From Candidatus Gorgyraea atricola (GTDB taxonomy: Bacteria > Omnitrophota > Gorgyraeia > Gorgyraeales > Gorgyraeaceae): 50,759 nucleotides of DNA. The notes beneath the pieces were generated by a model that saw nothing but the letters and a program-made list of their open reading frames with translations, did no database searches and had not been told where the DNA came from. The position numbers were made by a program, and so were the translations under genes. Of this stretch, positions 2,381-50,759 are shown in pieces. The stretch covers positions 1 to 50,759 of the forward strand of contig JAVCCW010000002.1 in NCBI GenBank assembly GCA_030765235.1. The letters are read 5' to 3'. Positions within the stretch are counted from its first letter, which is position 1; each line of letters begins with the position of its first letter.

Positions 2381-2381
2381 C

Positions 2382-3498: not shown

Positions 3499-3517
3499 AA
3501 AGTAAAAGGAGGTAGAT

Positions 3518-4120: not shown

Positions 4121-4125
4121 ATGGA

Positions 4126-17869: not shown

Positions 17870-19578
17870 GGTGGAGTAAGTATTTTATACCAACTTTAAA
17901 AGAAGTTCCTAGTGAGGCTGAGGCTGTGAGTCATAGGCTTATGATTCGTGCTGGTTTGATTCGTAAGCTTGCTTCAGGCGCGTACACGTATCTTCCGCTT
18001 GGCCTTAGGGTGCTGAAAAAGGTTGAGGCTATTATTCGTGAGGAAATGGATGCGAAGGGCGCGCTAGAACTATTTCTACCGTCGTTGCAGCCAGTTGAGC
18101 TTTGGCACCAGTCAGGTAGATACAAGGATCTTGGAGAGGACCTGATTAAATTTAAGGACAGGCACAATCGCACAATGGTGTTTGGCCCAACACATGAAGA
18201 GGTTATTACAGATCTTGTACGGTCTAATATAAAGTCCTACCGCCAGCTTCCTATAACACTCTACCAGATCCAGACTAAATTTAGAGATGAGGTACGGCCT
18301 CGATTCGGCGTGATACGAAGCCGAGAGTTTATTATGAAAGATGCGTATAGCTTTGATAGGGACAATGCCGGGCTTGACGCGAGCTACAAAAAGATGTATG
18401 AGGCTTACGAGACGATTTTCAAGCGCTGCGGCTTGCGTGCGCTAGCAGTTGACGCAGACACTGGCGTAATGGGCGGGGATGTATCGCATGAGTTTATGGT
18501 GCTTGCGGAGAGCGGAGAGGATTTACTTGCGTATTGCTTAGCTTGCGGGTATGCGGCAAGCATAGATGTAGCAGCAGTTGGTCGAGGCGAAACCTCCGCC
18601 ATGCTTAAGCATGGCGGAGGTTTCGCCTCCGTCACTTTAAAAGAGGTGGATACTCTTGGAGTTTCAACTATTGAGAAAGTCAGCGCCTTATTAAAGGTTA
18701 AGCCTGAGGAGATGGTGAAGACGCTTGTGTATGTGGCGGATGAAGAGCCTGTTGCGATTTTGATTCGCGGTGACCACGAAGCAAATGAGGCAAAGATCAA
18801 GAAATTTCTTAAATGCGCAAAGCTAGAAATGGCAGGAGAGGATGTTATTAAAAAAGCCACTGGCGGACCAATAGGCTTTTCAGGGCCAGTTGGCATTAAA
18901 ATAAGGATCATAGCTGATCACTCTATTAAAGGTATAGCTAATTTTGTTGCAGGCGCAAATAAGAAGGATAAACACCTTATAAATGTAAACCTTGACCGTG
19001 ATTTCAAGGTAAAAGAATGGGCAGATTTGCGCATGATTACAGAGAAAGACAAGTGCCCCAAGTGCAATAAACCCATAAAACTAGAGCATGCCATTGAAAT
19101 GGGCCATGTGTTTAAGCTTGGCCTGAAATACTCCAAGGCAATGAAGGCAGAATTTCTGGATGAGGATGGAAAGCTAAAGCCAGCAGTAATGGGCTGCTAT
19201 GGTATAGGTGTAAATCGCATAATCGCAGCTGCAATAGAGTTAAATAACGACAAAAAAGGCATAATCTGGCCAAAGCCCATTGCACCATTCCAGGTAATCG
19301 TAATACCTTTAAATTATGACAAGGAAAATGTCCGCAAAGTCGCAGACCAAGTGTATAGCGACTTACAAAAGAAGGGCATAGAGGTGCTCTTAGACGACAG
19401 AAACGAGTCCGCAGGCATCAAATTCAACGACGCTGAACTAATCGGCATACCTTATCAAGTGGTAATAGGAGAAAGGGCCCTTAAGAAAGGAGTAGTAGAA
19501 GTAAAAAACAGAAAAACCGCTAAGATTCAAGAGATCAAGCCAAAGGATATCAAGGATATTATCCCCACCTTAACCTGA
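17866..19578 (+). CDS. proS: Prolyl-tRNA synthetase with editing (INS) domain
   Basis: Class II aminoacyl-tRNA synthetase that charges tRNA-Pro and clears mischarged Ala-tRNA. Motif 1 is around GLRVLKKVEAIIREEMDAKGALELFLPSLQP, motif 2 around TKFRDEVRPRFGVIRSREF, and motif 3 around GCYGIGVNRIIAAAIE. The INS editing domain lies at about 257-400 and the anticodon-binding domain at the C-terminus (ending EIKPKDIKDII). The length of 570 aa is normal for the bacterial type. A 46-bp palindrome (18584-18629) is inserted in frame at residues ~240-255, in the linker between the catalytic core and the INS domain. Confidence 0.97.
   Translation: MRWSKYFIPTLKEVPSEAEAVSHRLMIRAGLIRKLASGAYTYLPLGLRVLKKVEAIIREEMDAKGALELFLPSLQPVELWHQSGRYKDLGEDLIKFKDRHNRTMVFGPTHEEVITDLVRSNIKSYRQLPITLYQIQTKFRDEVRPRFGVIRSREFIMKDAYSFDRDNAGLDASYKKMYEAYETIFKRCGLRALAVDADTGVMGGDVSHEFMVLAESGEDLLAYCLACGYAASIDVAAVGRGETSAMLKHGGGFASVTLKEVDTLGVSTIEKVSALLKVKPEEMVKTLVYVADEEPVAILIRGDHEANEAKIKKFLKCAKLEMAGEDVIKKATGGPIGFSGPVGIKIRIIADHSIKGIANFVAGANKKDKHLINVNLDRDFKVKEWADLRMITEKDKCPKCNKPIKLEHAIEMGHVFKLGLKYSKAMKAEFLDEDGKLKPAVMGCYGIGVNRIIAAAIELNNDKKGIIWPKPIAPFQVIVIPLNYDKENVRKVADQVYSDLQKKGIEVLLDDRNESAGIKFNDAELIGIPYQVVIGERALKKGVVEVKNRKTAKIQEIKPKDIKDIIPTLT
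18584..18629. repeat. 46-bp perfect palindrome inside proS
   Basis: Two 23-nt arms, left arm GAGGCGAAACCTCCGCCATG then CTT, meet without a spacer at CTTAAG. It is translated in frame as Gly-Glu-Thr-Ser-Ala-Met-Leu-Lys-His-Gly-Gly-Gly-Phe-Ala-Ser. The right arm reads AGCATGGCGGAGGTTTCGCC, which resembles the arm AGCAACCCCGGAGGTTGCC of the equally long palindrome at 32807-32852, so both probably belong to one family. Confidence 0.9.
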
Positions 19579-19589
19579 CAAATTTGTCA
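19576..19589. other. 14-bp palindrome upstream of the giant gene promoter
   Basis: TGACAAATTTGTCA overlaps the proS stop and lies 10 bp before the -35 box of the giant gene. It could be an operator or a weak hairpin. There is no T-tract, so a terminator is less likely. Confidence 0.35.
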
Positions 19590-19599
19590 CAATATGCGC

Positions 19600-19628
19600 T
19601 TGACAAGAAAACGTTTTTATGCTAAACT
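19600..19628 (+). promoter_or_regulatory. Sigma70-type promoter for the giant ORF
   Basis: TTGACA at 19600-19605, exactly 17 nt, then TAAACT at 19623-19628. The AT-rich leader runs to a Shine-Dalgarno AAGGAG about 8 bases before the ATG at 19712. The same TAAACT -10 box is used at 49638 for another exported protein. Confidence 0.75.
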
Positions 19629-19711
19629 TATACTAGTTGAATAGTTTATAAATATATTATAAAATGCTATATATAACCTATGTATAACACAGATATATAA
19701 GGAGAGTTTTA

Positions 19712-22700
19712 ATGTACCGCACTAAAATCAACAAGGTCATTTCAATCGTAACAATCCTAATATTTTTCCTGACAAATTTCGCATCTGCAGCGCCAAGGTC
19801 CCATCTCAGGGCTCCGATGTCTTTTAATAAAGAGATGATAGCAGAGCAGAAAGATATAACTGAAGACACCCAATCTAAAACTGAGACCATGCCTGTGAAG
19901 ATGCTGAAGCCAGTCGAGGTAATAGATGAAAAAACTGGGAAGAAAAGCATAAAGTATGTTGTAAGGCGTGGGCAGGGTAAGGTTGTAGAGGCTGGGAAAA
20001 CGATATTTAGTAGGCTATTGAAGGATTATAAGATAGAGGTTTCAGATGGTGCAAGTGACAGTGTCAAAAAGGTAGCTGCCATACATACTGAGGCAGGTAG
20101 AACGATATTGTCGAAATACGAGAAACAGGGTTTTGTAAAAGAGGTATTGACTGAAGTCAAGAAGGCGCGTGTTTCAAAGAATGTTGAATTTGTAGAAGAT
20201 AATGACACACTTATGGACATAGCGCCTGCGTCTACAGATATATCAGATACTCAAAAAAAGGTTACTAGATTTGACTTGGATCTAGCAAATAGAGACGTAA
20301 TTGATATAGAATATGGAGAAGATACGAATCTCACCTCAAAAGATCCTGAGATACTCCTTGGCACATTAGTACTTTCTGCCTTGGGTCAATTTCACGAATG
20401 GTGCCATCTCTCAGGCATGGATCAACAGCTTGCCATAATGAAGACATTTGATCTGCATGACGTCATGAGCCAAAAGGAAAAAAATGCCCTGTATAAAGTC
20501 CTGGATGCAGGAAGGATAGATGGGAATAATTCCTTTGCCATGGCATTAAAGGCACAGGGCAATTTTGGCCTTGCGCAAGAGATTGAAGAGGAATGGAATG
20601 TTGAGTCGCTTTTGGGTATACCAAGCACAGTGCTTCATGATGTAGGTGTAGCTTTGTCTCAGCAAAAGGCAAGAGAGTTTTGGAATACTATAGAGAACTC
20701 GGAAGGATATGAGACCCTTAAAGAGGCGCTAAAGTCTGTATTTAAAGATGACGGACGACGACGATATGATAACGATAAAAAAGAAGAACTCCTTGTCAAT
20801 ATAGAAAGGGCGCTTAAGTGGAAGGATCAGTGGGCATTGTGGCTAATGGGCCAGGAGCTAATAGATGTGGCCTATGACCAGCAAAAGGTGGCAGAGTTAC
20901 TTAGGGACACAGAAGACGGGGATATAGATGAGAAGAGAAGACAGATCGATGCGGCAATAACATCTAGTTTTGACGATGACGCAGAGATCGGGAACATAAA
21001 AAGGGTAAGCGACAAGATGCGCGAGGAAGACATCATGCTTGTGTGTGGAAGGGTCAGTCGCTCATTCGGCAATCAGATGCTTCTTTTAAGTAATTCAAAA
21101 AAAATAAAGGACCTTTCTCCATTAAGAGATATCACCCTTAAATTAGAAAAGGCAGCCAAAGGCGTTGAAGAGCTTTCTCCAGCTGTAAACAGGTTTAGAA
21201 ACCTTGCATTCGGAGTCGGAAAGAAAAAGAAGGTGTTTCTCTCGCAGCTTAAAGGTGCTGCCTGGCACATGGGCCGCGATTTAGATGATTGGGTCAGGGA
21301 AAGATCAGAAGAGATAAATAATGAAAAAGAAAAAGAAGACCAAAAACACTTTGGCGGAAGGCCTGACTCGTATTTTGAGAATTTGACAAAGAAGCTCTAT
21401 GCAAAGTCTATAGAGATAAAAAAACTCCTCAATGAATACGAAGATACTATTAAATACGCAGACTCAAAGAATTCAGCCTATCTGATTCTCCAACAAAGAT
21501 TCTTACCAGGAGAGACCCAGAGAATAGCGCAGTTAAACTATGGCCAGGACGCGTTTCCAGGAAAGATAGAAGTATTAAAGGACTTTTTTAGAAAAGGCAG
21601 CGCTCTCAGGTATGCTACAAAAGGAGACGCGACCTTTACCCGGCCTGATGGAAAAAAGGTTACTTACAGCTGGCTCACAAAAGCAAATCACTGGATAGAG
21701 TCCATACCTTTATTTATCAAGGAAAGGGTGATCAAAGAAACAGTTATAGGACCGGATGGAAAAGAGATAGAGATAGAGAAGACACAGACAGAGGTTGATC
21801 AGGCTGGCATGGAGGCATTTTTTAGATGGGTAGCTGAGGAAGCGGCAAAGAACTGTGATGAGGTAATGGATTCTGAGCACGTGACTCTGGGCCGTGAGTT
21901 ACTCGTAGATGAACTTGTAAAATCAGATAATAAGGTTGGTGAAAAATTAGAGGTTTTAAGGAAACAATTTGAAAAAGAAAAAAAGAAAGGACTCAAAAGC
22001 AAAAGGCCCAGTATTGCGCGTGATCTTTGGAATAGGCTTATAATTGGAGGCAAGGTAAAAACCAGACTAACCAGAAAACAAGTTGAAAAAATATCAGAGG
22101 AATATGGCAAGGAAGAGGCATATCGCCAGATAATCATTGAAAACGCATTAGGTGAAAGAGTTGCAGAATTAGGCGCCTTGATAGGAAAGGCATATGAGGA
22201 TAACATAGAAGACATTTCATTATACAAAGAACAGAAATCTACACCAAGGATCAACGCAGTAAGGGACAAGGTTATTAAGGCAGGCCTTGTTACTGCAGAT
22301 AGCGAATTAACATCTGATCTAACAGAAAAAGCCGTGGCATTAGAGGAAGAGGCATACAAGAAAAGACGGCCTGTGACTACTGTGCATATCCTTACCACTG
22401 AATCAGCAGGCATGACAGGCGGTTTTGTCCAGACATGGTTAGAGAGTGAAATGTCCATGTATAATCTGATCAAAGGCGAAGGATGGGAAAAGGAAGTAGA
22501 AGATAAGGTAGATGAATATAAACAGCGTCTTAATGCCCTAAATATGAGCGTGATAAATGACTTTGGTATGTGGTCTGAAGTAGAGGAGGCAAAGGTATTG
22601 AATAATCTGAAGAAAGATGACGATGCTGCTGCTATGGGCATAGTTGTTTCAATGAATAGGCCTTTGGCAGAAGAAGTAGCAAAACTTGCAACGCTCATAG

Positions 22701-25700
22701 AGTTTTATGAGAGAAGGGACAAGAAAGTAGACCTAGACAATAAAGAGGATCCAAAAGAGGTAGATGCTTATATAAAGAAAAACAAAAAAAACCTTGAGGA
22801 AACGGCAAGAGGACGTGTCATAGACTACAATGGAAGTGCTATAGAAGATCGTGTAGAAATACTGATGGAAGAAGGCCTAAGCAGGAAAAAAGCAGAACTA
22901 AAGGCCATAAAAGAGAATAAGGATTTTAAAGAGGATTTTGATAATTTCATACGTATCGAGGCAAGGGCCGGGCTTTTATTAGAGTTACATGAAGAAAACA
23001 AGGACCTTGCGCTTAAAGAAAAGGCACAGGAGTATCTTCGCAATCATACTTCATTAGCCAAGTCTATAGCAAGAAGAGAGGTCATAGCAAAGCACAGGGC
23101 ATGGGGTTTAACAAGTGATGTAAGATATAACTACACTGCAAGCGGAGCAAAAAAGAGGTATAACTTGATCTATGTGCCCAGCAGAGTTGACCTGGGCGCT
23201 GAAGAGATGGAGTCGATCGTAAGGTGGTTTCAGTGGTTAAGCGCAAAGGACGAAGAAGCGGAGATCGCAGGTATAGAGTTTTATAACCAGATAAATGAGG
23301 CAGGCGTGGTAGCAAAGCCATGGCTTGAGTGGCAGGAGATACAAAAGACTGCTGAGAATGCCAGCATGGAAGTTGGCAAGGCATTTGCTGCAATGGTTTC
23401 CAAGACAGTAAGAGCTGTTGGCGTAGGAGATGCGCAATTTATGCTGTACCAGATGAGGCTTAGGAGGGATAAAGATAGAGGTGCCCCGCCTCCTTCAGCA
23501 GGATACGCAGGATATTGCGTTACAAAGGATGGGTTATTTCTTGCGTATGTAGGTGGGCTTCTAAACGAGAGAATACTAACACAGATGGGCATCCCAAAGG
23601 AGCTGCATCCTTTGGTTAAAGATATAGCAAAGAAGCTCCTGCGGGAAAGGTCTCAGTTTGCAAGTGAATTTGAATGGGAGACCTGGGCAGCCAAGGAGAT
23701 ATTAAGTGAAGAAAAAATAGATGAATTCATGCGCCCTTATATTGAGGTAAGAAAAAAGAAAGTAGGCCTACGAGAAGAAGATATACTTGTAATGAACTTG
23801 ACAAAGATAGCTAAGGTATTAGGAGAGTTAGGGAAGCCATGGGAGGAAGTAGCTACTGCTGACCAGATATTTGAGAATATTGGCGCGCGCATGGCGCAGA
23901 AGGTAATGATAGAAGATGTTGAAAAGATACAGAGGTACATGGTTACGGATAAAACTTCTTTAATAAGAAGGACTCTAGCTAAACATGGCATGAGAGATGG
24001 CGCAATAGTTGTGCTTACGTCAGAATATAAAAAGGTCCAGGATCTAAGGACTTCAGCAGGCTTAAGAAGAAAGGATCAGCTGGCGCACATAGGAGATGCC
24101 CTTGTACATCAGCTTCTCCCTGAAGGACAGTTTTTGTATTATCTGGATGAACTTGGTTTTACATCTTTACCAAAACTCGAGACTGAAAAAAAGAAAATTC
24201 AAAAGCTATCGGGTGATGAGAAAAAGAGAAAGATGCGCGTATTAGAGCGGAGGAAGATGGTAAGTAAGGCCATGTATGATGATTTTAAACTTGTTGATGG
24301 AAAAGATGATGAGGTAATCAAGAAATTCGAAGAAGATTTTAAACCAGCTGGCCATATGGCAGATATAAGAGATGTTTCATCCACAAGGGCATCTACTGAA
24401 GATGCGTTGCATTATCATGACGATACACGGTTAGAACAGATAGCAGACCAAACTGCAATTAGATTAGCAGAATATGGCCTTACAGAGGATCAGATAAATA
24501 CAAATGCATACGTATATGGAGGGGAACTTGAAAAATGGGCAGGTATAAAAGATCTGCCAGAAAAGGATAGAAAAAAACTACTCAATAGCGAGATCCATTA
24601 CAAGATAAAAGGCGAGCCCTATTCAGTCTCTATTAAGGGCGCGATACATGCATTGGTTTTAAAAGAAAGAGGCCTTTATCATAGTTACATGCAGGCGATC
24701 CAGGGCTCTGATGTAGTGGACTTTGACATAGATTTTCCAGAACTTCTTGAGATAGGATATGACTATCCAAAGCTTATTAAACTGATGCTTACGGGAAGGC
24801 CAAACAGTAAGCTCTATGTATCAGATAGCGGCGTAGGAAGAATAAACAACTCATATACAGATGAGGATATCATGATGTTTTTTGCAGCATGCGATAATAT
24901 AGCAGGGCCAGGAAAAGGTATATATACATCTATTGATAAGGGCTGGAAGGTTATTGAACATCTGCGTGAAGAAAATATGATGCCTAAGAGGCAGCGCTCA
25001 GCAAGGATATTAGAGGCCTTGGGGAAAGTCGCAGACAGTGATGGAGATATAGGAAACATTGAAGAAGCGCAAGAGATTTATTATAGTATCATGGATCAGA
25101 TAATTAACAGGAATGAGGCAGATCAACAAATGCAGGACGAAATAACATACAAGGACTATGGCCGCTGGAGAGAAAGAGATCAGTTTATAACAGAAGGCCT
25201 TTCAAGAGTAAATCAGGGCCTTGGTTTAGATCAGCTTGATTTTGGCACATGGCTTACAATGGGCGGAAGATATCTGGTAGTTGGTAAGTCAGAAGAAGAG
25301 ATACAGAAGATAAGAGAGAAGTTTAGCAAGGCCATTAATATTATAAGCACACGCTCTTCGGGAACAGCATCGAACGAGAATGTCAAGGTTGTAAATAAAC
25401 AGCATGAAAATGAGATTGCTAGAGCGCTTGCATTGCCTGAATTTATTCCAGAGGCTCAGAAGTATAAAGAGAAAGAAATGAAGGAAGGCTCTTCAAAGGC
25501 ATCGGAGGACGCAGCAAGTGAGGCTTTAAAGAAGAGGGCTGCATACCGTCTTAAGGCAATAAGGTTTAGGGCGTTTGGACGCAGAGAAGAAGGATTTGAA
25601 GAAGTTTTGAAAGCAGATGAGCATAAAGGAAAGAGCTTTGATCATTATATCGATGAGGCAAGAGGTAGTTTAGGCGCTTTACAGTCATCGATGCAGGAAT

Positions 25701-28700
25701 TGTTTGATGCGAAAGGCCGTCCTGAAGAGCAGGTAGAGATCAGGGACCGTCTGAATAGTCATACAGGTAAATTCCTTGCACATGCAAAATTAGGCCTGGA
25801 AAGTATTGTAAATGAGATAATGCCTGAAGGTACAGATAAAGAGAAAGAAGAAAAAGAGAAGTTTTTGAAAAACATAAAAGACCTCTACACAGGCAGGGAG
25901 ATAAATATTGATATATGGAGGAAGATTGGAGGCACTTATACAGATTCTAAGGGTGACTTTGGTAGACTCGCAGAGGCTGCAAAAGGAGATAAGAAAAAAC
26001 TTGAAAAAATAGCTGAAGCAGGAATAGAGCTATTTTATGCAACCTTTGCTATTGGCCAGACAATAGAATTCGTGCAGCTGGAAAGGCAAAATGTAGAGCA
26101 GGATAAGCTGTGGCATGACTTGGCTGATTTCTTTGGCGAGACCATATATGATCACATGGCACCATACCTACCTTATGTACTTACAAAAGGCGAAGGTTAT
26201 AAGGATTACACAAGAGACCAGCTGTATGCATTGGCTGTTAAAAAACATAAGTGGCTGGATGATTATTTTCTTAGTATTTATTCCAATATTACTGATGTAG
26301 CAGACTGGAGCCAGGAAGAAAAGGATGCATATTTTGGTAATTTTAAAGATGGTAAGGAAATAGTTCCTGTAGGAAATAATGCGCCTACAGAGGCTGGAAG
26401 AAAGTGGCGTTCCTATGGCACAAAGAGGCAGCTTGCTTTTAATATGAGTGACGGTTTTCATATACCTTTGGTATTTCCTGAGTTTGATCCAGACATAATA
26501 AATGCTGATGAAAGTATTGTTGTAAATATGGGTTTTCCGCCTTCAAGAACACATACCGCAACCTTAATTAGAAAGAGCGCTGCTCTTAACAGGCAAAGAT
26601 TAGCGCGTGGTAAGCGAGGCGCAATTATAGTAGCAAATAGATATGATGAGCCTCAAGATGTGGGTGGCAAAAAGCCTGTTATCATGAATAAGTCCGGGTT
26701 TATCTGTATCTCAAAAGAGCAGGCTGTAGAGGCCCTGGTTAAGAATAAGGGTTACAAAAGAAAAGATGCACGAAAACTCGTTGATAAAATAGAAAGAGAA
26801 GATTTTATAAAAAGCATGATGAAGAATACCAGGTGTAAGCGAAGAGATGCAGAGAAAGAGGCAATACGACTACAGAAGAAAGGTGTACGCATATCACAGG
26901 GTATAATGATAGCAGGGCGTTTTACAAAGCCTATTAAGGCTGATAATGTCATACCATATCACCAATTAGAATTATTTGAAGAAGGAGAGCTTCAGAAATT
27001 AGGCCTGCCTGCTACGGTTCAGACATTGGCAAGCTTTGACGCATCTTATGATAAGGCGCTGTATAAGGATATATTTGAAGGTTCAGGCGTAAGCACTCCT
27101 GCTGAGATTCGTTGGCTCGAGAAATATGAAAAAGGTAAGAGTGAAGAGGAGATTATAAAGCTTATTATAGACGGTGTCCCAGGGACTGACTATAAAGGTT
27201 TAAAGGAATTTTCAAAGGAGTTTCCAGATATTGTTATAAAAGGTAGTTGGGAGTCTGGCGCTAGAAACCTTGATACCTTTACTATTTTAAAGGGCGGTGA
27301 TTTAGAGAAGGCAGCTAAGTTTGTCTATGATGTGGTGCATGCAAGGAGTGTACTGCAAAATGTAGTAATACAAGAGGCACTTTTGTGGTCGCCAGAAGTA
27401 TGGGCTTCAGAAGGTCTTTTACAGATGTTTGTAGATAGGCAAATTATGGAGGGCAATGTATCTGTAAAGCGAGAGTCGTATCCTAAAGACAGGATATATG
27501 CGACGTTTAGAGGTATATTTAGCTCACCTGGCCCAGGTCAAGAGTATGAAATGACTCATCCTATACTTCTAATGAATTTACAGGTCGCTACTAATGTAGG
27601 AAAAGGCGGCACATTAGAGTGTTTATTGGAAGAGTTTATACAGCCTGAGTATCAGAAAATGATCTTGGATGATCTTAAGAAAAAAGGCATATTGGTAAAC
27701 AAGGCTATGACTAAATACATGGAAGAGAAATATCCTGAGATAGCTGAGCAGAAAGAGGGCGAGAGCGATGAGGTGTTTGCGCTTAGAAAGAACACGCATT
27801 TAAAAGACTTAAGGGGCGTTCCTTACAGCTGGATACCATATCTTATGAATGATTTTGCACTAAAGATAGAATGGGAAACACCAGGTGAGCTCGTAGATGT
27901 CGAACCTATTTATAATGAAGCAGGAGTTAGAATAGGTGGTAGGCCCATATTGAGAGATGAAAATGGGAAAAGGTTTGAGGGCAAGATAAAAATAATAGCA
28001 ACAGAAATGCGTTTATTCGAGCCTAATACAGGCATAGGTCTTGTCCCGAATTTTTCACAAAGGCAAGAGGCCAAGGAATGGAGAGCTGCTCTTAGAGAAG
28101 GACGGGATTTTAATATTGATAATGTTGGGATAGATGATATTAGGCTCTTAGAAAATATAGGCGTGGAGCCAGGAGAAGAGACTCGCATAGCTAATCTTGG
28201 ACCAAGTGCATTTCCGCCATCTTCACCTGGCCCTCGTAAAACTTCTCCTGATAAAAAGCTTGATGTAGAAACAAAAGAGTCAACTATGCTCGAGAGGGCA
28301 GCAGAAAAGGCTAGGGCTGCGCTTGGCATGGCCAAGGATCAAAAATTCACCATAGAGCAGATGAGTGTCCTAGCTAAGTATTGGGCTATAGAGCAGGGTC
28401 AGGCAATAGTTGATTTAAACCCTGAGAAGTTTAATATTGAAGATGCGATTAGGAATACAAGCTTTATTCGACTTAGTAAGATTGTAAAAGCAGGGCTTGT
28501 AAAAGGCCTTGATTTGAAAAATCTCAACACAAACCAGAATTATTATTTCACAAGGATCAAGGATCTTGCAATAGAGCAGGCAATAGGTGGCGAACGCGTT
28601 GCGCCAGAGCTCCAAATAGTGCCTGGCAAGGTAAAGGTAAAGGAAGCAAAGAAGATTTTAGGGGATCTGGAGAGTTTCGCAATAGTGCATGAGGGTGGAA

Positions 28701-31700
28701 GGAATTTCACAAACGAGCTCTATGCTCTAATCCATGATTCACTTGCACAGGGAGTTGTAAGTCAGGGCAAGCAACTGAGAAATGTAATAGGCGTTGATAA
28801 GCATTATCTCACAGAAGATGGAAAGGCTCGTAGGATTATCATCTATAGTCACATAACAGGCGAGTTAAAAGAGATAGAGCTTGAGGAGCCAATCAAGATC
28901 GACCGCGCCTTAACGCTTTATGCAAGTAAAGAAGCGCATAGGGAAATCTCTGAGGTGCTTGAGAAGAATGATATAGATGAGGTCAATCCTTATAAGTTTG
29001 CTGAAAAAGCAGACAGCAAGAGCGATTGTTATCGTATATGGAAACGCCAGGCAGTAATAAGTACTCCTAGCACTATCATTATTTCACAGGACACTGAGAA
29101 AAATAGCGTTACAGAGAAACTTAATGATGGTCTGACTAGCATTTTGAGTGAGGCAAAAAAAAGGGGACTTAAAGAGATACCAATTGTTGTTCAGCCTGAC
29201 ACAGGTACTGAGACACAGGGCGCTAAGGCATTTCTAATAGATGTTTCAAGCCCTGATTTAACACAAGCTATAGCGCATATAAGAGAGATCCAAAATACAG
29301 ATAGTGTGATCGTGCGCGAATATAAAGGTAATATTCGCTATTCTGAAGACGGAGGCGAAACAACATACGTGTGTGTATTTAGATACAATGTATCATCTAT
29401 TGCACGTGGCCATGATTATGAAGTAAAAAGCGGATATTTACAGTTAGCACCTACTCCTGATGCGCTTATTACATCTATTGCTAAGGGCGGAAGAATCATA
29501 GGATTTTCTGAAGAGGCATTCAATAAATTATACATTGATCTTGGAGATGGAAAACCCATTAGGTTGATGGGCATGGATAACGGCCATTTGGTTCTACGTA
29601 CAGGTGAGACCATGGCAAAACAATCAGCAATGTTTTTAGGGCTTAGATTTGCAGGCATTGATGTGACTTACGATGAAGCATACAGAAGAGAGTCTATAGA
29701 TAAGTCAAATATGACAGGTGCTGAGCCTTTTATCCTAGACGCAAATCCAAAGCCCGCAGGTCTTACACATACTAAGGCAACTGATCCTCTATACGACGGC
29801 CCATTGTTTAATTTTTGGGAAAAATCATCATCGTCTTTCGAGGATTTAAAGAACCTTCAAAAATCTGTCAAAAAGCCCGACGATGCTACGCCGGGGTCGA
29901 GTTATACGCTGTTGGATAAAGTGCTTGTGCCGCTGCGTGATATGGGGCTTATTCCGGAACAAGGGATTGGGATAGATGAATTGCTAGAGCAGGCAAATAA
30001 TAGAAGAGAAAAGAAAGTGGCCAAGAGCACACTTTACAGTGAGATAGCTGGCCTGAGGATTGCCGGAATAATTAAGCATAAGAATGGTAAAATTAGCCTG
30101 GCAGAGGCTTTTAAGTTTATCACTTACGATGATATTGAGCTCATGAATGCAGCTGCGAAAAAAGTTAATCCCAAGCTTATCCCTAAAGGTCTGGGTCAGG
30201 GCGCATTGGTTAGACGTTTAAGCGCAGAGGATAGGCTAAGACTACGTTCAGCAGTAAGAAAATCAATCCACGAAGAAGTAAAGAGGTACAATATTTTTAT
30301 AGATAATGCGATGGATTTTGCAGCAGGAGGTCGAGCACTGAATAGTGTTGCAGATTTAGTCAAAGATATCGCGTTAGAAAAAACACTTTCAGATGAATTT
30401 TTGACCCATTATTGCATAGATCATTTAATAGAGAGGCTGAAAGGTTTAACTTCGTCTGATCGCGATGCAGCTGAAGAGATTATTGCAAAGGTTTTACCTG
30501 AAGTAGCCAAAGAGATTATAGGTCAAGATTTAAGTACTCCCATAAAGAGCCTTTTTGATTTAATCTCGGATAAGGAAATAAAGAAAAACGCGCTTGTTGA
30601 TTTTATATATAATCTTGAGGATTATACAAACAGTATGCCTATTGACGAGTATGTATTTGACAATACCTCCAGGGCAATGGCATTTATTGCTAAGGCGCTT
30701 GATGAATTAAGGGACATGGGTGCTTCTGTTACTATTGGTACAGATAATGCAGATTTTTGTTATGCTGCATTAAAACGGTTCAAGGACTCTACAAAGAAAA
30801 CGCATCAAGATCAAAGGTCATTGAATTTAATAGCAGATGTCCACGAGTTAAAGAATCAGGTGCTAGATAGCGATGGTTTGGAAAAACTTGCAGCGAGATA
30901 TGAGAAGATCGTGCCAAGGCTTGCCAGGTTAAAGAGGTATTATGAGTTTAATAAGAAATATGGCGCAATATCAGCTAAACCAGTACATAAGGCCCTTTAT
31001 GGAAGGCGGATCCGGGTTAAATTTCCAGTAGGGCTTTCTCTTTCTCGCTGCAATCAGGATAATCCTGGAAAACACACTAAGTCTATTAAAAGCATAAGCT
31101 ATTGGTTAGCTGCCTTTAACATTATGAAAAATAATAAGGCAGAATCAGCTGGCACAGTGGATGTAACAAGGATAGAAGAGAAGGTGCTTAAATTGCATGC
31201 AAAGTCTTATGATGGTGCACCTGTAGAGATACCTTTAAAAGGAAAGCTCTCTTATGATGAGTTTTTTGATATGAAAGATAAGCCTTTTAGGATGATTAAA
31301 GCTAGTCTTAAGGCATCTGGCATTATAAAGGAAGGTTCTACAAATGTGATAGCTGATATATTAGAGTTTACAAATGGCGGAGGTTTGGAAATATCAGTAG
31401 ATACTATTATTCCTGGCGGCACTGGCCTGGGCACAAGCGGTGCAGTTGCAACAGCATTATGTACTGCACTTCAGCAATTACAGGTGGGTGAGACGCCTAT
31501 TACAATAGACAAGGGTTCAAAGATAGGCGAGCTTAGCGAGGTCCTGGAATGCTATTACCTGGATCTATTCAGTGGGCCACAGGATTGGAGACGTCCTATT
31601 GGCGGAGAGAGTGCGTTTAAGATATATACTCATAGGGCAGGAGATGGCCGTAGCCTTTATGATGAGCCAGATGTAAAGTATCTAGACGTTGATGTAGATA

Positions 31701-32770
31701 AATTTAATAAACACTTTATAGGATTTTTCCCTGGTTCTGGTTTTATAAGGGATTCAGGAGATAGATTAGGAGCTGTGTTAAGCCAGTACTTAGTTCGAGA
31801 TAGATTTGGCTATCAGGCAATGCTTGATGTAAATAAGGTCCAGGATAATTTTGAAGATACGCAGAGGACTGGTAATTTTAAAAATGTTGATCTTATGCTA
31901 AAGGCATATCAAACTTCAAGAAATATCATGGATCCTACAACACAGGAGCATCTGAAGAGGCTCCTTGAAAAGTTTGAGAAAGACATTAATAAGCTCGGCG
32001 CTCGCTTTGCATTCACAGGCTCACCAGGCGGTTTCATGAAGGTGTGGTGCAGGAATCCAAAAGATAAGCCACTAGTTGTGGAATATTTAAACAATTTGCC
32101 TAATAACAATGACCCTGCCTTTATGCATGATGGCAAGAACATCTTCAAAAAGGCCCAGGTCTTTGACCTGGAATTCGTGAATACAGGGTATGAGGTGGAG
32201 ATCGAGGAAGCAAAGAAGAGTCCATTCGATGGTCCAGGCGCTGCACCTGCAGAGTTTAACGACAAAAAACTTCCAGCTTATACGCCAACTAATTTCAGTG
32301 CACTGCAAAAGGAAGCTATGAACCTGATGCAGGAAGGCAGAATCGGCGATGCGTATGAGATGACCGATGATTTTATAGACGCAGGCCTTGGTGACGAGAT
32401 TGCAAAGGCAGAGGTGCTTCGTACGCAGATAATGGAAGGGGTCATTGTTGTAGCAGCAGCCAGCATAACGAATGTATCTAACTTTAAGAAATTTGTCCAT
32501 GAAGCAGTAAATGTGCAGAAAAAAGCAGTGGTGGTAATAGCTATGGATGAAGCTAAATACAACTATGTCAAAGGTATCGAAGGTATTAATATAAAGGTGC
32601 AAGCTGGGGCATGGACAAATAAATATGCTCTCAAGGAAAACCAAAAGATCAAATTGAACAACAGGCAAAGAGTATTGATGGAAATCTATAATATGAGAGG
32701 CGTTGATCTGAGCGTACTTGATAGCAGATTAAACAGAAAGACAACCAGGGCTATTGTATCAGGCGTCTAA
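19712..32770 (+). CDS. Giant exported multidomain protein (4352 aa) with HExxH motif, ATP-grasp-like regions and GHMP-kinase-like domain
   Basis: No named family covers the whole protein. Seen: a signal peptide with cleavage after ASA (residue 26), followed by LRAPMSF (32-38); HEWCH at 228-232 in a hydrophobic context, matching HExxH zinc peptidases; and long charged helical stretches through ~2250. A region at ~2260-2780 has IVIKGSWESGARN (~2507), VVIQEALLW (~2551) and EMRLFEPNTG (~2766), resembling ATP-grasp nucleotide and metal sites. A second ATP-grasp-like region at ~3150-3345 has IVVQPDTGTETQGAKAFLID and ILDANPKPAG. A winged-helix-like stretch lies at ~3440, and a GHMP-kinase-like domain at ~3765-4110 with PGGTGLGTSGA (~3900) and FTGSPGGFMKVW (~4102). 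The domain calls are by eye and need profile searches. The frame is open for 13 kb with uniform codon use. It has its own promoter. Confidence 0.85.
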   Translation: MYRTKINKVISIVTILIFFLTNFASAAPRSHLRAPMSFNKEMIAEQKDITEDTQSKTETMPVKMLKPVEVIDEKTGKKSIKYVVRRGQGKVVEAGKTIFSRLLKDYKIEVSDGASDSVKKVAAIHTEAGRTILSKYEKQGFVKEVLTEVKKARVSKNVEFVEDNDTLMDIAPASTDISDTQKKVTRFDLDLANRDVIDIEYGEDTNLTSKDPEILLGTLVLSALGQFHEWCHLSGMDQQLAIMKTFDLHDVMSQKEKNALYKVLDAGRIDGNNSFAMALKAQGNFGLAQEIEEEWNVESLLGIPSTVLHDVGVALSQQKAREFWNTIENSEGYETLKEALKSVFKDDGRRRYDNDKKEELLVNIERALKWKDQWALWLMGQELIDVAYDQQKVAELLRDTEDGDIDEKRRQIDAAITSSFDDDAEIGNIKRVSDKMREEDIMLVCGRVSRSFGNQMLLLSNSKKIKDLSPLRDITLKLEKAAKGVEELSPAVNRFRNLAFGVGKKKKVFLSQLKGAAWHMGRDLDDWVRERSEEINNEKEKEDQKHFGGRPDSYFENLTKKLYAKSIEIKKLLNEYEDTIKYADSKNSAYLILQQRFLPGETQRIAQLNYGQDAFPGKIEVLKDFFRKGSALRYATKGDATFTRPDGKKVTYSWLTKANHWIESIPLFIKERVIKETVIGPDGKEIEIEKTQTEVDQAGMEAFFRWVAEEAAKNCDEVMDSEHVTLGRELLVDELVKSDNKVGEKLEVLRKQFEKEKKKGLKSKRPSIARDLWNRLIIGGKVKTRLTRKQVEKISEEYGKEEAYRQIIIENALGERVAELGALIGKAYEDNIEDISLYKEQKSTPRINAVRDKVIKAGLVTADSELTSDLTEKAVALEEEAYKKRRPVTTVHILTTESAGMTGGFVQTWLESEMSMYNLIKGEGWEKEVEDKVDEYKQRLNALNMSVINDFGMWSEVEEAKVLNNLKKDDDAAAMGIVVSMNRPLAEEVAKLATLIEFYERRDKKVDLDNKEDPKEVDAYIKKNKKNLEETARGRVIDYNGSAIEDRVEILMEEGLSRKKAELKAIKENKDFKEDFDNFIRIEARAGLLLELHEENKDLALKEKAQEYLRNHTSLAKSIARREVIAKHRAWGLTSDVRYNYTASGAKKRYNLIYVPSRVDLGAEEMESIVRWFQWLSAKDEEAEIAGIEFYNQINEAGVVAKPWLEWQEIQKTAENASMEVGKAFAAMVSKTVRAVGVGDAQFMLYQMRLRRDKDRGAPPPSAGYAGYCVTKDGLFLAYVGGLLNERILTQMGIPKELHPLVKDIAKKLLRERSQFASEFEWETWAAKEILSEEKIDEFMRPYIEVRKKKVGLREEDILVMNLTKIAKVLGELGKPWEEVATADQIFENIGARMAQKVMIEDVEKIQRYMVTDKTSLIRRTLAKHGMRDGAIVVLTSEYKKVQDLRTSAGLRRKDQLAHIGDALVHQLLPEGQFLYYLDELGFTSLPKLETEKKKIQKLSGDEKKRKMRVLERRKMVSKAMYDDFKLVDGKDDEVIKKFEEDFKPAGHMADIRDVSSTRASTEDALHYHDDTRLEQIADQTAIRLAEYGLTEDQINTNAYVYGGELEKWAGIKDLPEKDRKKLLNSEIHYKIKGEPYSVSIKGAIHALVLKERGLYHSYMQAIQGSDVVDFDIDFPELLEIGYDYPKLIKLMLTGRPNSKLYVSDSGVGRINNSYTDEDIMMFFAACDNIAGPGKGIYTSIDKGWKVIEHLREENMMPKRQRSARILEALGKVADSDGDIGNIEEAQEIYYSIMDQIINRNEADQQMQDEITYKDYGRWRERDQFITEGLSRVNQGLGLDQLDFGTWLTMGGRYLVVGKSEEEIQKIREKFSKAINIISTRSSGTASNENVKVVNKQHENEIARALALPEFIPEAQKYKEKEMKEGSSKASEDAASEALKKRAAYRLKAIRFRAFGRREEGFEEVLKADEHKGKSFDHYIDEARGSLGALQSSMQELFDAKGRPEEQVEIRDRLNSHTGKFLAHAKLGLESIVNEIMPEGTDKEKEEKEKFLKNIKDLYTGREINIDIWRKIGGTYTDSKGDFGRLAEAAKGDKKKLEKIAEAGIELFYATFAIGQTIEFVQLERQNVEQDKLWHDLADFFGETIYDHMAPYLPYVLTKGEGYKDYTRDQLYALAVKKHKWLDDYFLSIYSNITDVADWSQEEKDAYFGNFKDGKEIVPVGNNAPTEAGRKWRSYGTKRQLAFNMSDGFHIPLVFPEFDPDIINADESIVVNMGFPPSRTHTATLIRKSAALNRQRLARGKRGAIIVANRYDEPQDVGGKKPVIMNKSGFICISKEQAVEALVKNKGYKRKDARKLVDKIEREDFIKSMMKNTRCKRRDAEKEAIRLQKKGVRISQGIMIAGRFTKPIKADNVIPYHQLELFEEGELQKLGLPATVQTLASFDASYDKALYKDIFEGSGVSTPAEIRWLEKYEKGKSEEEIIKLIIDGVPGTDYKGLKEFSKEFPDIVIKGSWESGARNLDTFTILKGGDLEKAAKFVYDVVHARSVLQNVVIQEALLWSPEVWASEGLLQMFVDRQIMEGNVSVKRESYPKDRIYATFRGIFSSPGPGQEYEMTHPILLMNLQVATNVGKGGTLECLLEEFIQPEYQKMILDDLKKKGILVNKAMTKYMEEKYPEIAEQKEGESDEVFALRKNTHLKDLRGVPYSWIPYLMNDFALKIEWETPGELVDVEPIYNEAGVRIGGRPILRDENGKRFEGKIKIIATEMRLFEPNTGIGLVPNFSQRQEAKEWRAALREGRDFNIDNVGIDDIRLLENIGVEPGEETRIANLGPSAFPPSSPGPRKTSPDKKLDVETKESTMLERAAEKARAALGMAKDQKFTIEQMSVLAKYWAIEQGQAIVDLNPEKFNIEDAIRNTSFIRLSKIVKAGLVKGLDLKNLNTNQNYYFTRIKDLAIEQAIGGERVAPELQIVPGKVKVKEAKKILGDLESFAIVHEGGRNFTNELYALIHDSLAQGVVSQGKQLRNVIGVDKHYLTEDGKARRIIIYSHITGELKEIELEEPIKIDRALTLYASKEAHREISEVLEKNDIDEVNPYKFAEKADSKSDCYRIWKRQAVISTPSTIIISQDTEKNSVTEKLNDGLTSILSEAKKRGLKEIPIVVQPDTGTETQGAKAFLIDVSSPDLTQAIAHIREIQNTDSVIVREYKGNIRYSEDGGETTYVCVFRYNVSSIARGHDYEVKSGYLQLAPTPDALITSIAKGGRIIGFSEEAFNKLYIDLGDGKPIRLMGMDNGHLVLRTGETMAKQSAMFLGLRFAGIDVTYDEAYRRESIDKSNMTGAEPFILDANPKPAGLTHTKATDPLYDGPLFNFWEKSSSSFEDLKNLQKSVKKPDDATPGSSYTLLDKVLVPLRDMGLIPEQGIGIDELLEQANNRREKKVAKSTLYSEIAGLRIAGIIKHKNGKISLAEAFKFITYDDIELMNAAAKKVNPKLIPKGLGQGALVRRLSAEDRLRLRSAVRKSIHEEVKRYNIFIDNAMDFAAGGRALNSVADLVKDIALEKTLSDEFLTHYCIDHLIERLKGLTSSDRDAAEEIIAKVLPEVAKEIIGQDLSTPIKSLFDLISDKEIKKNALVDFIYNLEDYTNSMPIDEYVFDNTSRAMAFIAKALDELRDMGASVTIGTDNADFCYAALKRFKDSTKKTHQDQRSLNLIADVHELKNQVLDSDGLEKLAARYEKIVPRLARLKRYYEFNKKYGAISAKPVHKALYGRRIRVKFPVGLSLSRCNQDNPGKHTKSIKSISYWLAAFNIMKNNKAESAGTVDVTRIEEKVLKLHAKSYDGAPVEIPLKGKLSYDEFFDMKDKPFRMIKASLKASGIIKEGSTNVIADILEFTNGGGLEISVDTIIPGGTGLGTSGAVATALCTALQQLQVGETPITIDKGSKIGELSEVLECYYLDLFSGPQDWRRPIGGESAFKIYTHRAGDGRSLYDEPDVKYLDVDVDKFNKHFIGFFPGSGFIRDSGDRLGAVLSQYLVRDRFGYQAMLDVNKVQDNFEDTQRTGNFKNVDLMLKAYQTSRNIMDPTTQEHLKRLLEKFEKDINKLGARFAFTGSPGGFMKVWCRNPKDKPLVVEYLNNLPNNNDPAFMHDGKNIFKKAQVFDLEFVNTGYEVEIEEAKKSPFDGPGAAPAEFNDKKLPAYTPTNFSALQKEAMNLMQEGRIGDAYEMTDDFIDAGLGDEIAKAEVLRTQIMEGVIVVAAASITNVSNFKKFVHEAVNVQKKAVVVIAMDEAKYNYVKGIEGINIKVQAGAWTNKYALKENQKIKLNNRQRVLMEIYNMRGVDLSVLDSRLNRKTTRAIVSGV

Positions 32771-32773
32771 CCT

Positions 32774-32800
32774 TTGAAAATCAGGAATTTGTGGTATAAT
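32774..32800 (+). promoter_or_regulatory. Extended -10 promoter for the TIKI/ChaN-like gene
   Basis: TTGAAA (32774-32779), 15 nt, then TATAAT (32795-32800) preceded by TGG, i.e. an extended -10. It starts three bases after the stop of the giant gene, so the next gene can be transcribed on its own. The transcript would begin just before the 46-bp palindrome. Confidence 0.65.
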
Positions 32801-32806
32801 ACTACC

Positions 32807-32852
32807 TTAGCAACCCCGGAGGTTGCCGTACGGCAACCTCCGGGGTTGCTAA
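32807..32852. repeat. 46-bp perfect palindrome in the 5' UTR
   Basis: Two 23-nt arms, left arm TTAGCAACCCCGGAGGTTGC then CGT, with centre GTAC. Each arm can also fold on itself (GCAACC with GGTTGC). It lies between the -10 box and the Shine-Dalgarno (AAGGAG, 32852-32857), so on RNA it forms a very stable hairpin directly abutting the ribosome site. Same length and similar arm as the palindrome in proS. Confidence 0.9.
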
Positions 32853-32863
32853 AGGAGAAATTT

Positions 32864-34582
32864 ATGAATAAAACTATCTCTATCTTAATTCTTTCGATAT
32901 TTCTTTTTACCAACACCACCTATGCAGCTGAGCGGTCGAGGCAGCTGTTCAGGAAAAAGAAGGTAGACTATAAGAAGCTCTCTACTCAAAAAGAAGAAAG
33001 CCTCCAAAAGCGCAAGGATGTTCTAAAAGGAGATGATAAGGCCCAGGATCGCAAGAAACAGGCCAGGCGAATTCTCCAGCATCATCTAAAGGATTTATCC
33101 CAGATAAATATCCCATCTGAACTTGGCAGGGTAACAGAGGTGTATGACGCAGAGAGGGACAAGGGACAAGGGACAAGGGACAAGGCGAAGGGCGTACTTG
33201 TTGTACATATCCAGGACCTGCACACAAACGCAGAGGCTCAATATAATGAGGCAAAGATACTCGAGATACTCATAAAAGACTATGGCATGAATCTAGTGTT
33301 GTCAGAGGGCGCAGAAGGAGAGGTGGATACCTCCAGCGTCTCAAGCTTTCCAGATGCTGAAGTCAGGGAAAAGACAGCAAGGATTTTTGTAGATTCAGGT
33401 GAGTTAACAGCAGAAGAATACCTGTCAATAACAAAATATCCGGACCTACCTATCTGGGGAATCGAAGACAAAGACATCTATTTTAAGAACATCATAGAGT
33501 TTAATAAGATCATGAGATTTTCACCAAAGTCCCAGGTCTTTATCTCTCAGGCCAAAAAGGCCTTGGAGAATCTTCGGTCAAAACTTTACACGCCTGAACT
33601 TAGAGAGATAGACCAGAAAGAGGTCCAATACGAGAATGAAGAGATAGAGACAAAGGAATATCTGGATTATATCTCCTCTTACATCACACGTTTCAATATC
33701 CCTACAGATAAATATAAAAATATCTCTCTTTTAATAGAGGCTACTGAACAGGAAAAGACCATAAACCAGGCAAAGATCGGCCAGGATTCCCAGAACTTGC
33801 TCATGAATTTGCAGGCAGCCCTTTCAGGCAGTTCCAACCGCAGGACCATGGATTTATTAATGGCAAAGGCCGAGCTCTTTAGAAGCCAGAAGATATCAGC
33901 CTTTTCATTCTATAGCTATCTAAGAAACCTTGCCATAAAGCACTTAGAAGATAAAATGGTGAAATACCCAGATTTGGAAGAGTTCGTGGATTACCTCACT
34001 AAGGTAAATTCCCTGGATACGACAAAGCTCTTTGTTGAAATGGAAGACCTGGCATATGAGGTAAAGCAAAACCTCGCGCAGACACAGGAACAAAAGACCC
34101 TGGTCCAGGGCTTGAGAAACATAAAATTTCTGGAAAACTTATTTAACCTCAAGATCTCAAATGAGGAATTAGACTATTATCTTAATAATAGAGATTCCCA
34201 TAAAGTCTCTTTTTTCAAAGACTTTCTAATACCTACTCTTAAAAAATATGGCATGCAGGCAACTATAGATTATAAATCTGAATTAGTAGACATGAGGCTA
34301 GAAGAGATAGAAGAGTTCTACCAGACAGTTAAGAAGCGCGATTTTTCAATGGTTGAGAATTCTACCAGAGAGATAGAGCGTCGTAATGCCAAGGTCGCTG
34401 CGTTAATAGGCGGTGGCTTTCACACAAAAGGCATAACGCGCCTGCTAAAAGACCAGGGCTACTCTTATGTCGTAGTCTCCCCATACTCTGGCACAGAAAT
34501 AGACGAGGAAAACTACCATTATCTCTTATCAGGAAAGCGTAAACCTTTGTCGGAACTAATAGATGAGTTTGATCAGGAGTAA
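32864..34582 (+). CDS. Exported TIKI/TraB/ChaN-like protein, unknown function
   Basis: About 572 aa with a signal peptide (MNKTISILILSIFLFTNTTYA, cleavage near residue 21). The start at 32864 is fixed by the AAGGAG site; an in-frame TTG at 32774 lies in the promoter. After a basic helical stretch comes VVHIQDLHTNAEAQ (~115-128) and LVLSEGAEGEVD (~145). The C-terminus has ALIGGGFHTKGITRLL (~510-525). Paired His-containing motifs at the two ends of a helical protein resemble the TIKI/TraB/ChaN (EreA-like) superfamily; this is inference and no enzymatic role is claimed. A period-7 word array (33154-33185) is translated at ~97-107. It follows the giant exported gene and may act with it. Confidence 0.8.
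   Translation: MNKTISILILSIFLFTNTTYAAERSRQLFRKKKVDYKKLSTQKEESLQKRKDVLKGDDKAQDRKKQARRILQHHLKDLSQINIPSELGRVTEVYDAERDKGQGTRDKAKGVLVVHIQDLHTNAEAQYNEAKILEILIKDYGMNLVLSEGAEGEVDTSSVSSFPDAEVREKTARIFVDSGELTAEEYLSITKYPDLPIWGIEDKDIYFKNIIEFNKIMRFSPKSQVFISQAKKALENLRSKLYTPELREIDQKEVQYENEEIETKEYLDYISSYITRFNIPTDKYKNISLLIEATEQEKTINQAKIGQDSQNLLMNLQAALSGSSNRRTMDLLMAKAELFRSQKISAFSFYSYLRNLAIKHLEDKMVKYPDLEEFVDYLTKVNSLDTTKLFVEMEDLAYEVKQNLAQTQEQKTLVQGLRNIKFLENLFNLKISNEELDYYLNNRDSHKVSFFKDFLIPTLKKYGMQATIDYKSELVDMRLEEIEEFYQTVKKRDFSMVENSTREIERRNAKVAALIGGGFHTKGITRLLKDQGYSYVVVSPYSGTEIDEENYHYLLSGKRKPLSELIDEFDQE
33154..33185. repeat. In-frame GGGACAA tandem array inside the TIKI-like gene
   Basis: Four copies of the period-7 word GGGACAA, translated as Arg-Asp-Lys-Gly-Gln-Gly-Thr-Arg-Asp-Lys, located just before the conserved strand GVLVVHIQDLH. 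The word is nearly the GAGACAA word of the intergenic array at 3436-3498. Confidence 0.85.
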
Positions 34583-34596
34583 TGCAAACTTTTCTC

Positions 34597-34626
34597 TTGA
34601 CAGGAAGGAGTGTGTTATAGTATAGT
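34597..34626 (+). promoter_or_regulatory. Sigma70-type promoter of the rimP-nusA-infB operon
   Basis: TTGACA (34597-34602), 18 nt, TATAGT (34621-34626). Transcription would start near 34633, about 225 nt before the rimP ATG, leaving a long structured leader. Confidence 0.7.
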
Positions 34627-34658
34627 AGGACTTGCGAAAGGGAGGTGTTTGAGATTAG

Positions 34659-34687
34659 AAGTGGGTGTTTCAGGCCCGCTTTTTTTT
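34659..34687 (+). terminator. Terminator-like hairpin in the rimP leader (attenuator candidate)
   Basis: AAGTGGG pairs with CCCGCTT (one G.U) around a 9-nt loop and is followed by at least six T. It lies only ~30 nt after the predicted transcription start. Leader hairpins with a GTGGG...CCC-CTTTTTT form are common before rimP-nusA in other bacteria. Because the operon lies downstream, read-through must be possible, so control by termination/antitermination is likely. Confidence 0.7.
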
Positions 34688-34691
34688 ATGA

Positions 34692-34735
34692 GCACTTGAG
34701 TTACGAAAATCTTTGATTTTCGTAACTCAATGTGC
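34692..34735. repeat. Leader hairpin A, AGTTACG family
   Basis: A 16-bp perfect stem (TTGAGTTACGAAAATC with its complement, loop TTT) extended by GCAC/GTGC after one bulged base. It is a relative of the hairpin at 34806-34850. Confidence 0.8.
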
Positions 34736-34741
34736 GAATAA

Positions 34742-34799
34742 ACCCCCACACCAATTTCTAAGCATACCAAAAGATGTCTGCTTAAATTGGTGTGGGGGT
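34742..34799. repeat. Leader hairpin B, long stem with CCCCCACACCAATT arm
   Basis: ACCCCCACACCAATT (34742-34756) pairs with AATTGGTGTGGGGGT (34785-34799). An inner TAAGCA/TGCTTA stem is offset by small bulges and closes a loop of about 14 nt. It separates hairpins A and C. Function unknown. Confidence 0.75.
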
Positions 34800-34805
34800 A
34801 AGTTC

Positions 34806-34850
34806 GGCCGAATAAGTTACGGCAATCTTCGATTGTCGTAACTTATGGCC
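34806..34850. repeat. Leader hairpin C, AGTTACG family
   Basis: ATAAGTTACGGCAATC pairs with its complement around TTC, with one G.U pair, and is extended by GGCC/GGCC after a two-base bulge. It shares the AGTTACG..AATCTTYGATT layout with hairpin A, and the changed bases remain able to pair. It ends seven bases before the rimP ATG. Confidence 0.8.
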
Positions 34851-34857
34851 CTCACTT

Positions 34858-35307
34858 ATGCTAGACAAAATCAAACAAGCGATAGAACCTATATTAAAGG
34901 AAGAGGGCTGCGAGCTGGTGGAGATGGTTTACAGGCGCGAGGCTGGGAGAATGGTGCTGCGTTTATTGATAGATAGAAAAGGTGGAATTACGCTGGGAGA
35001 CTGTACACAGTTAAACCAGAGACTTAGTATGGTCCTGGATGAGGCAAATGTAATTACAGAGCGCTATGTATTAGAGGTGGATTCGCCTGGCATGGACAGG
35101 CCATTTAAGATAAAGAGGGATTATGAAAGGGCAAAGGGGAGACTGGTGAGGGTGATGCTGAGTGAGGCAGTGGCAGAGAAAAGAGAACATATAGGGACTT
35201 TAGAGGAGATCTTAGAGGATTCTATAAAGGTAGATACAAAGAAAAAAGGTATCATCGAGATACCGTTTGATAAAATTACGAGAGCGAGGCAAGAGGTGGA
35301 CATATGA
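34858..35307 (+). CDS. rimP: Ribosome maturation factor RimP
   Basis: Small cytoplasmic factor for 30S subunit maturation. The N-terminal domain is typical (PILKEEGCELVEMVYRRE, LRLLIDRKGGITLGDCTQLNQRLS) and the family motif YVLEVDSPGMDRPFK is intact (~73). It is 149 aa. It overlaps nusA by four bases and starts the conserved rimP-nusA-infB operon. No strong Shine-Dalgarno is visible, and hairpin C ends just before the start. Confidence 0.95.
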   Translation: MLDKIKQAIEPILKEEGCELVEMVYRREAGRMVLRLLIDRKGGITLGDCTQLNQRLSMVLDEANVITERYVLEVDSPGMDRPFKIKRDYERAKGRLVRVMLSEAVAEKREHIGTLEEILEDSIKVDTKKKGIIEIPFDKITRARQEVDI

Positions 35308-49643: not shown

Positions 49644-49678
49644 AATAAATAGATTATAAAAGATTTAAACACGTGAAT

Positions 49679-50657: not shown

Positions 50658-50759
50658 TTTTTGGAGAGTTTGATTCTGGCTCAGAACGAACGTTGGCGGC
50701 GTGGATAAGGCATGCAAGTCGAACGATCCCGAGCAATCGGGATAGTGGCAAAAGGGTGA
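50658..50759 (+). rRNA. rrs: 16S ribosomal RNA, 5' end (partial, runs off the window)
   Basis: The universal 5' region is present: GAGTTTGATTCTGGCTCAG at 50666-50684, then GAACGAACGTTGGCGGCG, GTGGATAAGGCATGCAAG and TCGAACG. By alignment to E. coli (GAGTTTGAT starts at base 9) the mature end is near 50658. The GCGTGGATAAG-CATGCAAG form is typical of the PVC group and supports an Omnitrophota-like source. Only about 102 nt are visible. Confidence 0.97.

Follow-up and report, generated by a model that had tools for sequence, protein, structure and literature searches.

The gene P0001 is located between proS and rimP-nusA-infB in the window, i.e. the whole stretch of 50,759 nucleotides that was analysed. 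It is one uninterrupted frame (19712-32770, 13,059 bases) encoding 4352 aa, and the window features given below are on the same forward strand. A ribosome-binding site, AGGAGAG (19700-19706), was recognised in the sequence 5 bases 5' of the ATG. Residues 1-26 (19712-19789) form the leader MYRTKINKVISIVTILIFFLTNFASA, cut before A, in which a Lys/Arg-rich start is followed by a hydrophobic stretch and a cleavage site after ASA; visual inspection and a simple script rule both mark it as a textbook Sec signal peptide. The leader thus meets the sequence criterion for a Sec signal peptide; this is inferred from the sequence alone, and export of the protein is also an inference that has not been shown experimentally. 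Directly after the signal peptide is the motif LRAP (residues 32-35, 19805-19816). Of 21 exported Omnitrophota proteins of at least 800 aa, 17 have LR close to the signal peptide, as compared with 4/21 in a control stretch; the motif had been spotted before the counting, and the significance of this contrast is therefore optimistic. In the fetched Omnitrophota loci the motif is often LRxP, and it is uncommon in smaller exported proteins (7/40). A metalloprotease reading of HEWCH (residues 228-232) was considered and rejected; HExxH occurs at that site in P0001 and the G033 homologue, and is absent from the leaderless homologues.

P0001 is a fusion of parts that occur elsewhere as a three-gene module (A, B and C). 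Comparison with homologues placed module A at residues ~60-2830 (19889-28201), and this part is a separate, leaderless protein of ~2650 aa in other phyla. In Latescibacterota (L048), the order A-B-C is kept as three adjacent leaderless genes of ~2650, ~530 and ~640 aa; the separate A protein matches residues ~55-2830 of P0001, the B protein residues ~2870-3370, and the C protein residues ~3500-4086. The search for related loci reached Gemmatimonadetes, Latescibacterota, Myxococcales, Acidobacteria, Methylotetracoccus oryzae and several more Omnitrophota records. A and B, mostly adjacent, were also found in Acidobacteriota, Myxococcota, Gemmatimonadota and Methylotetracoccus; the two genes lie side by side in the Myxococcales, Acidobacteria and Methylotetracoccus records, as do B and C in Gemmatimonadota (G404). 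A homologue of B was present in 12 of the 13 searched genomes having A, and C was present in some. The module is rare, since the family was found in only one of 189 sampled Myxococcota genomes; a plasmid search with module A gave no match. The leaderless A proteins start a few residues before an LP[VI] stretch aligned with residue ~60 of P0001, which indicates that, compared with leaderless A, P0001 carries the signal peptide and the LRAP linker as an N-terminal extension. We take the separate leaderless homologues to be cytoplasmic, and the leaderless A-B-C module appears to be an undescribed biosynthetic unit.

Within module A, a UDP-sugar-dehydrogenase-like segment (residues ~1145-1280, 23144-23551) was recognised by TIGR03026, PDB 3g79 and alignment. 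The TIGR03026 match has an E-value of 4e-6 in P0001 and 2e-12 in a leaderless homologue, and the family profile of the segment matched PDB 3g79 at E 5.6e-13. The catalytic residues K1212, N1216 and C1269, and also K1272, are conserved in every aligned row that has a residue there; the catalytic cysteine sits in the sequence GEGYGGYCVPKDGLF, which reads SAGYAGYCVTKDGLF in P0001. The segment thus shares the central helical domain and the GYGGYCVPKD catalytic-cysteine motif with the UDP-sugar (UDP-glucose, UDP-ManNAc and NDP-GalNAcA) 6-dehydrogenases (TIGR03026, PDB 3g79 and 4r16); however, it has no recognised NAD-binding Rossmann motif, carries a ~230-residue insertion, and lies inside a protein of ~2650 aa. 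The NAD-binding GxGxxG motif was not found upstream of the segment in any aligned row, and the segment may therefore not be a working oxidoreductase. Since the N-terminal Rossmann criterion is unmet, it was not classed as a member of the UDP-sugar 6-dehydrogenases. In the Foldseek search of the middle region these dehydrogenases rank first, yet the matches are weak (prob 0.99, E about 0.1, low TM-scores).

Two tandem ATP-grasp folds were confirmed in the predicted structure by AlphaFold2 and Foldseek. The model spans residues 2220-3370 and was built with 30 aligned sequences (mean pLDDT 86.7). Its best PDB match is carbamoyl-phosphate synthetase, which has tandem ATP-grasps (E 1.6e-15), and further matches include RimK, D-Ala-D-Ala ligase and glutathione synthetase. 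Neither region was detected by single-sequence Pfam, NCBIfam or PDB sequence searches, and the profile of region 1 gave no PDB sequence match. ATP-grasp 1 (residues ~2425-2775, 26984-28036) lies in module A; K2510 is invariant across the aligned rows, and E2770 and N2772 are nearly so. The roles of the ATP-binding Lys and the metal-binding Glu and Asn were assigned from motif position, not from superposition. ATP-grasp 2, which is module B (residues ~2945-3365, 28544-29806), was supported by profile, alignment and AlphaFold2/Foldseek; it carries the QPxxGTE and DANPKPAGL signatures, and the fold and the C-terminal (D/E)xNxRPxGL signature are both present. The Lys of the VVKPxxGxxGxG loop is absent from module B of P0001 and is replaced by Gln. 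Gln is also found in most leaderless homologues, with Lys in G033, L054 and L091; this replacement is common to exported and most leaderless forms and is therefore not decay after export. Both regions share the fold of the ATP-grasp ligases (RimK, cyanophycin synthetase, glutathione synthetase and carbamoyl-phosphate synthetase), which module B also resembles by sequence profile. Unlike these known ligases, the P0001 modules are part of a putatively exported chain, B has Gln for the usual Lys, and the substrate is unknown.

Module C (residues ~3500-4086, 30209-31969) was delimited by homologue comparison, and is a separate gene of ~640 aa in Latescibacterota and Gemmatimonadota. A fucokinase-like GHMP kinase core (residues ~3847-4125, 31250-32086) was recognised by Pfam, NCBIfam and PDB matches. 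PF00288 scores 24.8 bits in P0001, above the Pfam gathering cut-off of 22.3; the fucokinase half of NF009948 matches at E 6e-8 in P0001 and at 3.7e-36 in the leaderless Latescibacterota gene, which is also matched by the PDB fucokinases. GHMP motif 2 (GGTGLGTSGA) is retained in P0001; motif 3 reads GSPGGF where GAGGGGF is usual. The closest known enzyme is FKP, a bifunctional L-fucokinase/L-fucose-1-P guanylyltransferase (NF009948, PDB 5yys and 9iip), whose GHMP kinase half matches module C; P0001 differs in having no recognised guanylyltransferase half, an altered motif 3 and a signal peptide in front. In the fused homologue of G090, an NTP-transferase match precedes the GHMP domain. The C-terminal domain of P0001 (residues 4141-4352, 32132-32767) has so far been found in only two genomes of the same bacterial family.

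Among the 99 relatives searched were frames of 3,230-6,168 aa that are collinear with P0001 over residues ~200-3365 (about 3,300 residues), and these indicate that the P0001 frame is not a chance one. The family is uncommon in the phylum, as ATP-grasp 1 was matched in 13 of 384 sampled Omnitrophota genomes, three of them weakly. Signal peptides were found on the homologues in G305, G035, G411, G090, G066, G412 and G047. In the G033 homologue (L024, around 11330-11500) the signal peptide is in another frame, and this gene is therefore frame-shifted as assembled; those of G349 and G231 are truncated, and their N-terminus could not be read. A GHMP match follows ATP-grasp 2 in the fused forms of G035, G066 and G090.

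The initial annotation of this gene had claimed a single frame of 4352 residues behind a signal peptide, two ATP-grasp-like regions and a GHMP-kinase-like domain, and all three claims held (the first by the frame, ribosome-binding site and leader sequence, the second by AlphaFold2/Foldseek, the third by PF00288 and the fucokinase half of NF009948). It had named two results that would refute it. The absence of ATP-grasp or GHMP folds in structure prediction was not met, as ATP-grasp folds were seen. Orthologues without a signal peptide were not cleanly met: the fused Omnitrophota orthologues with a readable N-terminus carry one (that of G033 in another frame), and the leaderless orthologues that exist belong to other lineages and are encoded separately, which makes the puzzle more acute. 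Of the checks it had proposed, that on domain order was answered by the collinear frames and the position of the GHMP match; that on active-site residues showed conservation in ATP-grasp 1 and the dehydrogenase-like segment, but Gln for Lys in module B and an altered GHMP motif 3. It had missed the fusion of a three-gene module, the dehydrogenase-like part, and the sugar-phosphate enzymes in other signal-peptide giants at this locus.

A tree was reconstructed from 15 rows of module A, on which the signal-peptide forms require three changes, and a single clade of exported forms was rejected (AU p 2.8e-6). The exported state was thus gained or lost more than once; whether by gains or by losses is undecided. 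P0001 grouped with an Acidobacteriota row (support 100/100), and in a larger quick tree with Acidobacteriota and Myxococcota rows. It lies on a long end branch, and its exact placement is unsure because the branches are long and the letter make-up differs.

The cysteine content also differs between the forms. P0001 has 0.37% cysteine vs 0.97% in 24 cytosolic-type genes of the window (p 1e-4), and the exported forms of G035, G066, G090, G411 and G412 have 0.12% vs 0.70% in leaderless A (p 7e-23). The sole cysteine in module A of G035 is the catalytic one. The exported form of G305 (0.65%) shows no depletion, and even the leaderless A proteins are somewhat low in cysteine. Nearly all forms, exported as well as leaderless, retain K2510, E2770, N2772, K1212, N1216 and C1269. 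The loss of cysteine might be a mark of life outside the cytoplasm; this is an inference, and it supports export only indirectly.

The proS-rimP interval of other genomes holds different genes. It is empty in G007, and other relatives hold different signal-peptide frames there. For example, the G003 locus has a 2020-aa signal-peptide frame with FBPase-GlpX and class-II aldolase matches, and the G002 locus has one of 2002 aa in which UDP-glucose pyrophosphorylase is combined with phosphoglucomutase. A signal-peptide frame of 1906 aa lies 5' of rimP in G011; it matches phosphoglucose isomerase and FBPase, and the motifs IGIGGSS, SKTGET and DPLDGSS are intact. PF00342 (phosphoglucose isomerase) was found in two of 14 Omnitrophota genomes (G011 and G015; L131 and L132), in both only in frames of ~1900-2020 aa. 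In the close relative G006 (L027, 16131-19319) just the last ~211 residues of the giant are left, with a transposase fragment and a frame resembling PEP-utilising enzymes next to them; as only the 3' end is retained, the giant gene is dispensable. As a side observation, the interval (19578-34858 in the window; L123-L127 and L133) appears to be a hotspot for large signal-peptide frames in this bacterial family.

Giant frames with few annotated domains are known from Omnitrophota (Seymour et al. 2023, PMC10066038). P0001 resembles them in phylum, very large frame and few annotated domains; however, those giants exceed 20 kb and were read as adhesins, coat or cell-surface proteins, whereas P0001 is an enzyme fusion and, with 13,059 bases, fails the length criterion of >20 kb. 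The literature searched held nothing relevant on this domain combination, and exported enzymes of this kind were not described in it. The component folds are known; the exported assembly is without precedent in that literature.

The best reading, which could as well prove wrong as right, is that P0001 is an exported sugar-activating mega-enzyme that arose by fusion of A, B and C behind a Sec signal peptide. Module A (the dehydrogenase-like segment and ATP-grasp), B (an ATP-grasp ligase) and C (a fucokinase-like GHMP kinase) would have been fused into one chain, with the signal peptide and linker placed ahead of A. The whole chain would cross the inner membrane and act on sugars there: a sugar may be phosphorylated at C1, a sugar nucleotide oxidised to a uronate, and the acid joined to an amine, with ATP or nucleotide sugars of that compartment paying for the reactions. 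Sugar chemistry that depends on ATP would be expected in the cytoplasm, and no ATP pool is known outside it. Lysed prey or hosts would be the most economical nucleotide source, because the lineage is thought to be host-associated or predatory; the alternative is the cell's own nucleotide export. A search for the ATP/ADP translocase family was uninformative on the ATP source, since it matched no control genome either. Export, folding and activity have no experimental evidence, and the substrate and the ATP source are unproven. The case rests on the joining of leaderless enzymes, the gain of a signal peptide more than once (or its repeated loss), the catalytic residues that are kept and the other cysteines that are reduced. 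If true, this would be an instance of extracytoplasmic metabolism that is direct and open to testing, and it would give the giant genes of Omnitrophota, which are poorly understood, a biochemical role. A bolder reading, against which we lean, is that this Omnitrophota family runs part of its sugar-phosphate and sugar-nucleotide metabolism extracytoplasmically through exported multi-enzyme fusions, which would be fed by nucleotides and sugar phosphates of prey or hosts or by a compartment of its own.

The initial annotation had offered three ways out (export of only part of the chain, other ligands, or ATP available outside), and none of them is decided. It remains possible that P0001 is exported with its nucleotide-using folds repurposed, as binders of other ligands or as a scaffold or coat without catalysis. 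The lack of a known extracytoplasmic ATP pool, the non-canonical GHMP motif 3 and ATP-grasp 2 lysine position, and the long end branch are in its favour; however, the active-site residues are equally conserved in exported and leaderless homologues, and the catalytic cysteine survives the loss of nearly every other cysteine. It is unlikely that the leader directs the chain not to the periplasm but to a membrane-bounded compartment within the cell, where the chemistry would be closed off from the cytoplasm and a dedicated carrier would supply the ATP. The LR motif that recurs behind the signal peptides of large exported proteins might act as an additional sorting signal, and the sugar-phosphate enzymes on other exported giants would also fit; but nothing found here points to such a compartment or carrier.

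Still less likely is that the hydrophobic leader is an anchor only, and that most of the chain remains cytoplasmic. The separate homologues are leaderless, and in this case the enzymes would work normally in the cytoplasm; whereas the Lys/Arg-rich residues before the hydrophobic stretch, the ASA cleavage site after it, the cysteine depletion of exported forms and the recurrence of signal peptides on several separate branches argue against it. A decaying or misassembled fusion without function is all but ruled out. The loss of all but the 3' end in G006 speaks for decay; but the stop-free 13-kb frame, the collinear homologues of similar build and the conserved active sites largely refute it.

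Other large or exported frames were also observed. Adjacent to P0001 lies a protein of 572 residues (32774-34582, probable ATG at 32864) that appears to be exported and has no cysteine and no Pfam match. It is homologous to the N-terminal part of the G002 and G003 giants, and resembles pieces of the giants in G064 and G083. In the G064 giant (L026, 3-14447), one 4815-aa chain combines UDPGP, GHMP kinase, AAA_11/AAA_12 helicase-type and GNAT matches; the frame of the G083 giant (contig C1, ~1457254-1495356) runs to 12,701 aa, its N-terminus is signal-like, and it has a GHMP-like match. Another probable signal-peptide protein of the window (49673-50455), with TLRLP behind its leader, is located just 5' of the 16S rRNA start at 50658.
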